Source of the DNA: Sinohyriopsis cumingii
Taxonomy: Eukaryota; Mollusca; Bivalvia; Unionida; Unionidae
Direction of reading: 5' to 3'
NCBI GenBank assembly: GCA_028554795.2
Contig: CM068828.1
Coordinates: 5,363,720 to 5,427,719, forward strand
Length of the DNA: 64,000 bases
A program made the translations under genes and the position numbers. The notes beneath the pieces are model-generated. The model saw only the letters and a list, made by a program, of their open reading frames with translations, was not told where the DNA came from and made no database searches. Below are positions 15,783-34,314 of the stretch, one piece after another; position 1 is the stretch's first letter, and every line of letters starts with the position of its first letter.

Positions 15783-16345
15783 AGTAGTGAAAGGGGTGAG
15801 ATTAGCGTCAATGGGAATTAGCATTAAAAACACCCCCTGGGCGAGATTAGCGTCAATGGAAATTTAACATTAACCACCCTGGGAGAGATTAGCGTCAATG
15901 GAAATTTAACATGGGCAAAAAACCCTGGGTAAGATTAGCGTCAATGGAATTTAACATTGGAGAAAGGAAAAAAAAAGGAAATATTGAGATTAGCGTCAAA
16001 GGCATTCGAACAATGGAAAAAAAAAAATCGATTCTAGGGACAAAGGCAATTGAACATGGGGAATAGAGTTTGGGTCTGTCTAGGGACAAAGGGGAATTGA
16101 ACATGTTATAAAAAAAAAAAACTACTTTAGGGACAAGGGGAATTGAACATGGGAATAGAGTTTGGGTTTGTCTAGGGACAAAGGGGAATTGAACATGTTA
16201 GAAAAAAAAAACTACTTTAGTGACAAGGGGAATTGAACATGGGATTTTTTTTTTTTTTTTAAAAAAAATTTATAAAGGGGTAGGCAATCGAAAGGCTATC
16301 TCTTTTCGAGAAATGTGGGTGGCCCTGAAAAGGGCCTTTGGGTTT
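15783..16345 (+). repeat. Left terminal inverted repeat (563 bp)
   Basis: Matches the reverse complement of 33793-34314. The outer 210 bases contain five direct copies of AGATTAGCGTC at 42-55 bp spacing, and the middle has repeated AGGGACAAAGGGGAATTGAACATG units; the left copy carries one extra unit, which explains the length difference. The inner edge is a histone-like 3' stem-loop. Poly-A/T runs differ in length between the two ends. Confidence 0.95.
16297..16342 (-). terminator. Histone-type mRNA 3' stem-loop in left terminal repeat
   Basis: On the minus strand: GGCCCT-TTTC-AGGGCC (16336-16321), a 6-bp stem with a 4-base loop, then ACCCAC and CTCGAAAAGAGATAGC. The stem, UUUC loop and ACCCA flank equal the metazoan replication-dependent histone 3' signal. 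AAAAGAG could pair with the CUCUUUU of U7 snRNA (established for vertebrate U7; host U7 unknown). It lies 24 bases past the stop of the 77-aa gene. Confidence 0.8.
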
Positions 16346-16360
16346 ATGTCAATATTAATA

Positions 16361-16594
16361 TTAACATAGACGGCATCTGTCACATCTTCTTCTTCTTCTT
16401 AAACTCCTTCTAAGTGCAGGTCCATACACAAGTACCCTCTTGAGGCATCCTTGTCTTTCTATGTAAACTCTTCTCATCCATAGACTAGTATCTGTCCTAT
16501 CAACAACAGTCCACTTGGACCGGACATACATGAGCATGTCCGTCCTAAACATCATGGAAGACACAAGGGTGGATGATTCAACTGTGGTCCACAT
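16361..16594 (-). CDS. Accessory protein, 77 aa, Arg-rich with CxxCxxC tail
   Basis: Not a recognised family. It begins with ATG at 16594, the first AUG downstream of a TATA box at 16646-16638 (44 bases). The C-terminus is strongly basic (LRRRRRC) and ends CDRCRLC, a possible metal site. It runs outward into the left terminal repeat and is followed after 24 bases by the histone-type stem-loop, the mirror image of the last gene at the right end. A nucleic-acid-binding or nuclear role is possible from the basic tail, but this is inference. The promoter, first-AUG position and 3' signal together make it more than a chance frame. Confidence 0.6.
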   Translation of the reverse strand: MWTTVESSTLVSSMMFRTDMLMYVRSKWTVVDRTDTSLWMRRVYIERQGCLKRVLVYGPALRRSLRRRRRCDRCRLC

Positions 16595-16637
16595 CGTGAG
16601 GAGAGGAGAACAAGTGAATCAATGCAGTGAACTGCGC

Positions 16638-16646
16638 TTATTTATA
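16638..16646 (-). promoter_or_regulatory. TATA box (TATAAATAA) for the 77-aa gene
   Basis: Minus-strand CCTATAAATAAGCG, 44 bases upstream of the ATG at 16594, with no earlier AUG in the expected leader. Confidence 0.6.
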
Positions 16647-16744
16647 GGTAGAGGAAGGATTGAAACGGATTGAGTTCATTCACCAATCCGAACATGCGTT
16701 ACAAAATTCAGTCAGTCCGCATCCAATCCGAAGAGAGCAGTCTG

Positions 16745-16766
16745 TGACGTCATGTGGTCTATATAG
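16745..16766 (+). promoter_or_regulatory. CRE palindrome plus TATA box for the 185-aa gene
   Basis: A perfect TGACGTCA (16745-16752), the CREB/ATF consensus, is followed 8 bases later by TATATAG (16760-16766). The ATG is at 16814, 54 bases downstream. A three-codon AUG-CGA-CAG-UGA lies at about 16797 and would be at or near the transcript start. Confidence 0.6.
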
Positions 16767-16813
16767 ATTCGCTAGCGCCTGTGTGCTGTCAATCTATGCG
16801 ACAGTGATTCAAC

Positions 16814-32418: not shown

Positions 32419-32557
32419 GATTCTGAAGCCACATATCCTGCCTTTGCTCTCTTCCCCAAAAAAGTAAAAAGCAACTGGGGAACAAGATGTGTATGTGGCG
32501 CCAGGCCTGGAAAGTGCCACCATTAACCAAGTGTCCATGAAGTTCCAAAAAAAACCC

Positions 32558-32600
32558 AGCCCTTTTCAGGGCTACCCAATACTCTAGAAAAGAAATAACC
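32558..32600 (+). terminator. Histone-type mRNA 3' stem-loop after cassette 2
   Basis: AGCCCT-TTTC-AGGGCT (32558-32573), ACCCAA, then CTCTAGAAAAGAAATAACC. Relative to the terminal-repeat copy the outer G-C pair is replaced by A-U on both sides, a compensatory change that supports selection on the RNA stem. Confidence 0.8.
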
Positions 32601-33027
32601 ATCAATTTGCCAATGTGTGTGTGTGTGTGTGTGTGTGTATGTAGAGTAGTGTGAATATAAACACTAACTCTTTTTTCATAGTGCTAGTGTATGTGTTTGT
32701 GCGTTTGTGTTTGTAACTGCTCACGTAAGTTGGTGTGAATGGTAGATTATGGGTTTCTTTATTGTTTCTTAGCGTATGTGGAGAGTATAGTTTGGGTTTT
32801 GTAACCGCTCACGTACGATTGTGTGGATAGTAGATTATGGATTTTGTTTATTGTTTCTTAGCGTATGTGGAGAGTATAGTTAGGGTTTTGTAACAGCTCA
32901 CGTACGATTGTGTGGATAGTAGATTTGGGTTTGTTTTAATGATTTGCGTGTGTAAATAGTAGATTTGGGGTTAGTTTATTGTTGCTTCACTTATGTGGAT
33001 AGTATATTACATGAAATGAGAAAAGTA
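32600..33027 (+). repeat. GT-rich spacer with about 85-bp tandem units
   Basis: A (GT)n run, then about three units built on GTAAC(C/A)GCTCACGTACG, GTGTGGATAGTAGATT and TTAGCGTATGTGGAGAGTATAG. No open frame of note. May be an enhancer-like array between cassettes; function not shown. Confidence 0.65.
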
Positions 33028-33136
33028 GGGGGATGTTTTCTTTCACGTCCGCGCGATGTTAGGTCATGATCTAGGTAAGATCAATTTTATGTTTTTAGGG
33101 GGATGTTTTCCATCACGTACGCGCTTTCACTATAAG
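33028..33136 (+). promoter_or_regulatory. Promoter module copies 3a and 3b
   Basis: 3a at 33028 (GGGGGATGTTTTC-TTTCACGTCCGCGC, no TATA). Then GGTCATGATCTAGGTAAGATC (33062) and 3b at 33098 with TATAAG (33131-33136). ATG 33187 is 56 bases past the TATA and is the first AUG. 3b has changed the core to CATCACGTACGCGC. Confidence 0.8.
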
Positions 33137-33186
33137 AACCCACAAAGTTTGATGTTGGAACCATTCTAAGGAATAACTGAGACAAA

Positions 33187-33780
33187 ATGACTCAAGTATC
33201 AGTTCTATTTAATCTATTGAGAGACATCTATTTCTGGATAATGGATGTAGAATATGTTGTAGGAAGAATAGAAGAGGAATGGAGGCATGGAGATATGAAA
33301 GACTTTGTAACGAGTCAAGTTCAAGGCCTAAAGACAGCAAGAGATATCATAGCAGGGATGATTGAAGAAGAAGTCAATAAGTCAAGAGGCTTCATTAACC
33401 CACCTTACTTCAGAGTGGGAAGTTTGAAGGAAGCACTGGATAATGTCATCAAAGTCCGGTGCTTCCTAGAAAAAATATTGTACTGGACAGAGTGGAGGAA
33501 TGTAAAATGGGGATTGGAAAAGGTGAAGAAAGGGGAAGATCTGATGAGAAAAGTAATGGAGGAAGAAGTAGAGAAGATTAAAGAGAAATGGAGGGAAGAA
33601 AGAAAAGATGTGGAAAACAAAAAGAAACAGGCAGAGTTTGAGAGGTTGAATCAGAATTGGATAAAAGTTCAGGAAAAGTTTAGAGCTCTAGGTCATCCTG
33701 ACTGGATGCCAGAAAAGGAGAAAAAGAAGACAGGAATAGTGACAAAAGTGAGAAGATGGTTGAAGAAGTGGAAGTGTTAG
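33187..33780 (+). CDS. Accessory cassette protein 3, two helical modules, 197 aa
   Basis: First AUG after the module. Two related halves: residues about 1-70 (LRDIYFWIMDVEYVVGRIEEEW ... ARDIIAGMIEEEVNK) and about 80-140 (LEKILYWTEWRNV ... GEDLMRKVMEEEVEKIKEKW). Each has an aromatic amphipathic helix followed by a D(L/I)(I/M)...EEV helix that also appears in cassette protein 1. The C-terminus is highly basic (VTKVRRWLKKWKC). No signal peptide. Unrecognised family. The stop is 13 bases before the right terminal repeat, which provides its 3' stem-loop. Confidence 0.75.
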   Translation: MTQVSVLFNLLRDIYFWIMDVEYVVGRIEEEWRHGDMKDFVTSQVQGLKTARDIIAGMIEEEVNKSRGFINPPYFRVGSLKEALDNVIKVRCFLEKILYWTEWRNVKWGLEKVKKGEDLMRKVMEEEVEKIKEKWREERKDVENKKKQAEFERLNQNWIKVQEKFRALGHPDWMPEKEKKKTGIVTKVRRWLKKWKC

Positions 33781-33792
33781 AAGAAGAAGAAG

Positions 33793-34314
33793 AAACCCAA
33801 AGGCCCTTTTCAGGGCCACCCACATTTCTCGAAAAGAGATAGCCTTTCGATTGCCTACCCCTTTATAAAAAAAATTTTTTTTAAAAAAAATTTTAAAAAA
33901 TCCCATGTTCAATTCCCCTTGTCCCTAAAGTAGTTTTTTTTTTCTAACATGTTCAATTCCCCTTTGTCCCTAGACAAACCCAAACTCTATTCCCATGTTC
34001 AATTCCCCTTGTCCCTAGACAGACCCAAACTCTATTCCCCATGTTCAATTGCCTTTGTCCCTAGAATCGACATTTTTTTTTCCATTGTTCGAATGCCTTT
34101 GACGCTAATCTCAATATTTCCTTTTTTTTCCTTTCTCCAATGTTAAATTCCATTGACGCTAATCTTACCCAGGGTTTTTTGCCCATGTTAAATTTCCACT
34201 GACGCTAATCTCGCCCAGGGTGGTTAATGTTAAATTTCCATTGACGCTAATCTCGCCCAGGGGGTGTTTTTAATGCTAATTCCCATTGACGCTAATCTCA
34301 CCCCTTTCACTACT
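33793..34314 (-). repeat. Right terminal inverted repeat (522 bp)
   Basis: Inverted copy of 15783-16345. GACGCTAATCT occurs at 34101, 34155, 34201, 34243 and 34288. The inner edge begins AAACCCAAAGGCCC, 13 bases after the stop of the last gene, so this repeat supplies that gene's 3' end. It ends CACTACT before the (TA)n tract. Confidence 0.95.
33802..33843 (+). terminator. Histone-type mRNA 3' stem-loop in right terminal repeat
   Basis: GGCCCT-TTTC-AGGGCC (33802-33817), ACCCAC, then CTCGAAAAGAGATAGCC; 21 bases after the stop of cassette 3. Identical to the left terminal-repeat copy. Confidence 0.85.

Follow-up and report, generated by a model that had tools for sequence, protein, structure and literature searches.

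Histone-type 3′ ends and promoter elements on accessory genes of a Polinton in the bivalve Sinohyriopsis cumingii

Sequence features at both ends of a Polinton in the genome of the unionid bivalve Sinohyriopsis cumingii suggest that its short accessory genes are built like the replication-dependent histone genes of the host and that their mRNAs are processed likewise, a reading to which we assign a probability of about 0.84. The element occupies positions 15784..34316 of a 64,000-nucleotide stretch, hereafter the window (GenBank assembly GCA_028554795.2, contig CM068828.1, forward-strand positions 5,363,720 to 5,427,719). Five short accessory open reading frames (ORFs) lie at its ends: on the left the divergent pair of gL and g2, and on the right g3x, g4, and gR. 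The sequence parts of these genes, their order, spacing, and conservation, and their identity with parts of the host histone genes can be read directly from the DNA; from these parts we infer recognition by SLBP and U7, cleavage without polyadenylation, and S-phase timing. We propose that the histone-type ends and promoters probably tie the accessory genes to the time at which the host copies its DNA.

Histone-type 3′ modules and their host counterparts

Four of the five accessory genes are followed, on their own strand, by a module made of a stem-loop and a downstream element. On the minus strand, gL (77 amino acids, 16361..16594), the left half of the divergent pair, is followed within the left terminal inverted repeat (TIR) by a module at 16296..16341, whose stem at 16321-16336 precedes GAAAAGAG. 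The other three are on the plus strand: g2 (185 amino acids, 16814..17371) with a module at 17393..17438 and its stem at 17398-17413; g4 (96 amino acids, 32128..32418) with a module at 32553..32598 and its stem at 32558-32573; and gR (197 amino acids, 33187..33780) with a module at 33797..33842, in the right TIR, and its stem at 33802-33817. Each module has six pairs (one of them a G-U at 17398), a TTTC loop, and then ACCCA, and in all four there are 13 intervening bases between the stem and GAAAAGA. The stop codon precedes the stem by 24 (gL), 26 (g2), 139 (g4), and 21 (gR) bases. The initial annotation of this DNA had described four stem-loops with these positions, strands, 6-bp stems, loops, and ACCCA, the A-U outer pair at 32558 and the G-U at 17398, a GAAAAGA 11-17 bases on, and a distance of 21-139 bases from the stop codon, all of which agrees with our measurements. 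To this we add that the two best sites are twins, that there is a fifth, stemless site, and that the right-hand genes have histone-type promoters. The twins are the modules with stems at 16321 and 33802; these are not independent, since they are located at the inner ends of the two TIRs. All module copies in the window look paralogous.

The fifth site lies behind g3x (142 amino acids, 31197..31625, plus strand), where a decayed module at 31653..31690 on the same strand retains the flanks and GAAAAGA and has no stem-loop. The stem appears to have been removed by a deletion between CCC repeats, and this site could serve as a natural negative control. Three of the modules contain a second small hairpin, TCTC-GAAAA-GAGA, which is absent from g4 and is thus not required.

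The modules are far more than chance would yield. A strict descriptor (six pairs, a TTTH loop, ACC) finds four sites in the element, whereas 500 dinucleotide shuffles of it have 0.04 on average; 20 of them have one site and none has more. The covariance model RF00032, the check proposed in the initial annotation, gave a divided answer: the two TIR copies (16296 and 33797) pass the gathering score of 34 bits at 42.5 bits each, and the other two do not, as set out below. The polymerase, ATPase, capsid, and protease genes have no such module, and among the 13 other ORFs checked not one has even a loose stem (three changes or fewer) within 250 bases of its stop codon.

The closest comparison is with the host itself. 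In the host genome (2.9 Gb in 1138 contigs), a histone H4 query has 114 matches, mostly in tandem at steps of about 8.3 kb. At the 30 histone loci fetched, every complete copy of H4 (30/30), H3 (28/28), and H2B (29/29) has behind it GGCCCTTTTTAGGGCC or GGCCCTTTTCAGGGCC and then CTAGAAAAGA, with one or two sequence versions of the 3′ end for each gene; this comparison covers H4, H3, and H2B. In the histone unit measured, 13 bases separate the stem from GAAAAGA in H3, H4, and H2B, the same spacing as in the Polinton modules, and the g4 module shares CTCTAGAAAAGA with host H2B. The interpretation of these sites as histone-type 3′ ends, first made from the window alone, is thus borne out by the stem, downstream element, and spacing of the host genes, and also by the promoter element described below. 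Stems of this kind are present in the histone mRNAs of one bivalve (sections of PMC6210712). In animals, the U7 machinery, together with CPSF73, cuts histone pre-mRNAs between the stem and the downstream element (sections of PMC9756948 and PMC1924863).

Promoter elements shared with host histone genes

The likeness to histone genes extends to the promoters of the right-hand genes, which have in common GGGGATGTTTTCC[TA]TCACGT[CA]CGCGC a few bases 5′ of a TATA-like box. This element was recognized by sequence at 31157..31182 for g3x, at 32039..32064 for g4, where TATAAA follows, and at 33099..33124 for gR, where TATAAG follows and a second copy lies at 33029-33054, all on the plus strand. Among the host promoters, that of H2B carries GATGTTTTCCATCACGTCCGCGC and that of H4 carries TTTCTTTTAGGTCCGCGCGTT. 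The g3x, g4, and gR elements of the window agree with the host H2B 23-mer at 22 of 23 bases, and other copies (e.g., at loci L007, L008, and L025) agree at all 23. Among copies fetched from the host genome, the element precedes the ATG of gR by about 85 bases in all but one of 30 (three mismatches or fewer) and is also found before five of seven ORFs of gR2 (four mismatches or fewer), a terminal gene family that has no BLAST similarity to gR at E 1e-5 and has the same 3′ module.

The longest exact string common to the 3.3-kb histone unit and the Polinton is 21 bases long and belongs to the H4 promoter; its place in the element is 31970..31990 on the plus strand, upstream of g4, with its near end 138 bases from the g4 ATG. 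Among 200 shuffled elements the maximum was 18, and the two host flanks of the element in the window each share at most 13 bases with the histone unit. Next come the stem-loop and the H2B promoter element, each with a common string of 17 bases; these matches alone are not significant, because 6 of the 200 shuffles reach 17 or 18. On the left, the divergent gL/g2 promoter region (16595..16813) contains TATA-like boxes in both orientations along with two CCAAT boxes and TGACGTCA. This intergenic stretch of 219 bases falls in the same length class and is partly conserved in 18 aligned copies, the window included.

The core ACGTCCGC recalls the motif of HINFP. This bears on the direction of transfer. 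The promoter element is far commoner genome-wide than histone genes are, which is what speaks for Polintons having been the source of the H2B and H4 promoter elements in the host histone cluster. We nevertheless give this direction a very slim chance: sites of the GTCCGC type in the promoters of H4 and H2B suit HINFP, a histone regulator of vertebrates, so that an origin in histone genes is simpler. Moreover, animal histone genes in general have the 3′ module. In human cells, the start sites of H4 and H2B are enriched for HINFP, according to part of PMC5283814.

Copies in the host genome and competing readings

A scan of the host genome with RF00032 yielded 589,472 first-look candidates, of which 75 were scored, all of them listed as above the cut-off. 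Each of the best 30 of these 75 loci carries an accessory gene of this Polinton: judged by ORF, gL at 14, g2 at 3, gR at 4, and gR2 at 7, and by tblastn gR at L011 and gL at L030. No match to H2A, H2B, H3, or H4 lies within 3 kb in any of the 30. In all, at least five families of accessory genes (gL, g2, g4, gR, and gR2) are followed by the module. With two chance matches left out, the best 30 loci hold 55 modules, and for 44 of these an ORF at least about 60 codons long ends no more than 250 bases upstream. Most of the stems have a G-C outer pair, 10 modules of the g4 class have A-U, and a few are mismatched there.

For conservation, copies were fetched by protein to avoid selection by the stem; a module survey with rows chosen by the stem, and with class labels that were too loose, was left out. 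The gR sample (n = 43) combines the 30 best matches out of 151 (97-100% identity) with 13 picked for low identity (89-95%). In every one of them GAAAAGAG lies at most 24 bases from the stem, and 37 have six pairs and a four-base loop, which is TCTC in one of them. Column variability averages 0.006-0.019 in the stem and loop and 0.0 in GAAAAGAG; the corresponding means are 0.064 for the spacer, 0.089 for the coding end, 0.156 for the 3′ untranslated region before the stem, and 0.11 and 0.249 further down. What follows the stem is less constant: all of the 30 best gR copies have the stem, often with AGCC or ACGC behind it, and requiring ACC there reduces the count to 8 of 30. Of the g2 copies, all eight have the module and seven a perfect stem. 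The related copies fetched keep the module together with the genes; loss of the stem from related elements that retain the genes had been named in the initial annotation as an outcome that would speak against the idea.

This pattern bears directly on the possibility that histone promoter and 3′ sequences were once captured and then spread by duplication and TIR conversion, with no current role. That all copies look paralogous and most of those fetched are young, that two of the four window modules are TIR twins, that the stem behind g3x has been lost, and that the stem or loop is damaged in 6 of the 43 gR copies are what such a history would leave. We nonetheless judge it unlikely, because the stem and downstream element are far less variable than the spacer, the 3′ untranslated region, and even the coding end; different families keep gene and module in order, gR and gR2 keeping the promoter too; and the g4 class has changed both sides of its outer pair.

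The number of copies is large. In the host genome there are 47,964 occurrences of a stem core with GAAAAGA at the set distance, a count that takes in the copies of host H2B, and 36,477 of the promoter 23-mer, the reversed control giving 0 in each case. Among the stem places listed, at least 18 minus-then-plus pairs could be picked out by eye at a distance of about 1.1 kb, as in gL/g2, and the recurrence of this arrangement suggests that there are about ten thousand copies of the element in the host genome. Accessory genes also recur at regular steps: gR is present three times at intervals of about 26 kb on C5 and three times at intervals of about 21 kb on C37, and g2 five times at intervals of about 11.85 kb on C7. 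This spacing suggests that the element forms tandem arrays.

Set against the 114 H4 matches in the same genome, such numbers could mean that the copies act mainly as decoys, depriving the host histone genes of SLBP, U7, or histone transcription factors by titration. We consider this highly improbable as the main role, since the modules closely follow conserved ORFs, which a decoy would not need, and most copies may be silent; titration may instead be a side effect.

Several observations weigh against histone-type processing of the accessory mRNAs. The g2 and g4 modules (17393 and 32553) score below the RF00032 gathering threshold, at 32.4 and 27.1 bits (E 5.8e-6 and 5.5e-4 in a search of 19.5 kb), although both are still far above chance. 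Of the 55 modules, 11 have no such upstream ORF, and in 6 of the 43 gR copies the stem or the loop length is imperfect, with the loop altered in one more. Because the copies fetched are mostly young, shared descent accounts for part of the conservation. The gL/g2 region lacks the H2B/H4 promoter element and has just the TATA-like and CCAAT boxes, for which reason its likeness to histone promoters is weak. The downstream element pairs with human U7 no better than random 45-mers of the element do. Host searches for U7 (RF00066) and SLBP (PF15247) gave no match, which says nothing, because the controls were equally silent. A capsid-profile search of genome contigs gave three loci (L001-L003) in bacterial metagenome-assembled genome (MAG) records, and these distant Polinton fragments, which may not reach the element ends, have no RF00032 match; the feature may for this reason be confined to one lineage.

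A further point of this kind is an AATAAA at 17390-17395, 8 bases before the g2 stem in the window. Together with TATAAA strings in the AT-rich stretch 3′ of some TIR modules and the poly(A) signal that lies close behind the hairpin of Caenorhabditis elegans histone genes (part of PMC1924863), it would suit a stem-loop that is bound while the mRNAs are mainly cleaved and polyadenylated, the stem just stabilizing the RNA or stopping transcription. This appears very unlikely to us. There is no AATAAA or ATTAAA between gL or gR and the element ends, or between g4 and the next gene; the AATAAA near the g2 stem is absent from all eight g2 relatives fetched; and the downstream element is held at exactly the host spacing. 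We accordingly continue to favor accessory genes that are built, and processed, like those of histones.

The element, related elements, and a possible link to S phase

The assignment to Polintons is based on sequence and on Pfam matches to DNA_pol_B_2, Pox_A32, and Chromo. The element ends in AGTAGTG...CACTACT. Its left TIR (15784..16345, plus strand) and right TIR (33794..34316, minus strand), each of about 0.5 kb, align with 506 matches, 7 mismatches, and 59 gap columns in 572, the identity stopping 9 bases short of the stem. A (TA)n run flanks the element on both sides, at 15783 and 34316, so that the target duplication is not exactly readable. Between the accessory genes, all on the plus strand, are a type B DNA polymerase (18298..22323, PF03175, E 1e-39), an A32-like packaging ATPase (22789..23532, PF04665, E 4e-7), the C-terminal part of what we take, by analogy, to be a chromodomain integrase (26191..26751; the match to PF00385 Chromo, E 6.9e-8, covers the chromodomain only), and an adenain-like protease (30370..30789) with a weak PF00770 match below the cut-off (E 0.011). 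An ORF at 28528..29838, with homologues in bivalves, other molluscs, and other animals and nothing above the cut-off in a Pfam scan, encodes the major capsid protein. The window thus holds TIRs, the polymerase, the ATPase, and the capsid protein of a Polinton, and of the integrase just the C-terminal chromodomain part; the expected integrase region (25644-26751) has no single open frame in this copy, and the chromodomain part alone was recognized. Outside the element, a tRNA-like stretch at 53904-53966 (33.5 bits) is perhaps a tRNA-derived short interspersed nuclear element.

None of the five accessory proteins has a histone Pfam match at E 0.1, nor does any other window ORF scanned, which accords with the earlier statement that no histone gene is present. 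Twenty protein-database homologues and at least 150 host copies were found for g2, and four homologues and 151 host matches for gR. The predicted fold of gR is helical (pLDDT 79), and Foldseek gave no match below E 0.001; ferritin/Dps was considered and rejected, as the bundles matched at E 0.03 and above were taken as generic. The N-terminus of g3x is, by eye, like that of g4. The g2 family has a conserved basic stretch near PKRKRPSRAK and GLGRGKGLRQLK; its GRGKG recalls the tails of histones H4 and H2A, possibly by chance.

With animal replication-dependent histone genes (RF00032 and the downstream element), the accessory genes share the stem, loop, downstream element, spacing, short ORFs, and TATA-type promoters, and on the right also the H2B/H4 promoter element. 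They differ in that their proteins have no histone match and in that they are scattered through the genome as part of a virus-like transposon. From other Polinton/Maverick elements, which likewise have TIRs, a type B polymerase, a packaging ATPase, the chromodomain end of an integrase, and a capsid protein, the element differs by the histone-type 3′ ends and promoters on its accessory genes. The statement in the initial annotation that this had not been described for Polintons is nearly right: section 16 of PMC12220804 counts six histone 3′UTR stem-loop hits in a collection of Polinton-like viruses (PLVs) and virophages, none of them in cryptophyte PLVs, and does not discuss them further. These hits are of the same class and in related elements; that section does not link them to genes and covers neither downstream elements nor promoters nor any comparison with the host. 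A literature search of open-licence papers found no description of gene linkage, downstream elements, or promoters of this kind in Polintons. No related Polinton was found among viral contigs searched with the capsid, the polymerase, a capsid profile, a gR profile, g2, and two stem patterns, or among phage records. The Polinton sequences L001, L003, and P0038, from MAG records of bacteria (Escarpia endosymbiont, Thiodiazotropha), are of the animal type and probably represent host contamination.

Based on these comparisons, we propose that the right-hand genes would start near the TATA-like box just 3′ of the element common to host H2B and that each accessory mRNA would end in the histone stem-loop, followed in its precursor by a host-type downstream element at the host spacing. 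Host SLBP would be the putative partner of the stem-loop and the U7 small nuclear ribonucleoprotein that of the GAAAAGA element, with CTCTAGAAAAGA and CTCGAAAAGAG as the putative pairing sequences, and CPSF73 would cut about five bases behind the stem. The resulting mRNA would have no poly(A) tail, be made in S phase, and be lost at its end, and the accessory proteins would thereby appear while cell and element replicate their DNA. Placed at the inner edge of both TIRs, the module would give a histone-type 3′ end to any outward-facing terminal gene. In Hydractinia, histone genes of this type are S-phase specific (sections of PMC5011920). It is a tentative extension, to which we give slightly less than even odds, that the host histone programme has been taken over at both promoter and 3′ end, so that the accessory genes come on at S phase, perhaps in histone locus bodies, and may compete with or reshape histone supply.

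Histone-type 3′ ends are thought of as a mark of replication-dependent histone mRNAs. If our reading is true, a transposon with such ends on several unrelated genes and histone promoter elements on some of them would represent a direct entry of a mobile element into the S-phase programme, and it raises the question of what effect about 48,000 extra sites have on histone supply. The copies would form a natural set of sequence variants for the rules of SLBP and U7 recognition, and the arrangement offers a testable answer to how Polintons time the expression of their genes.

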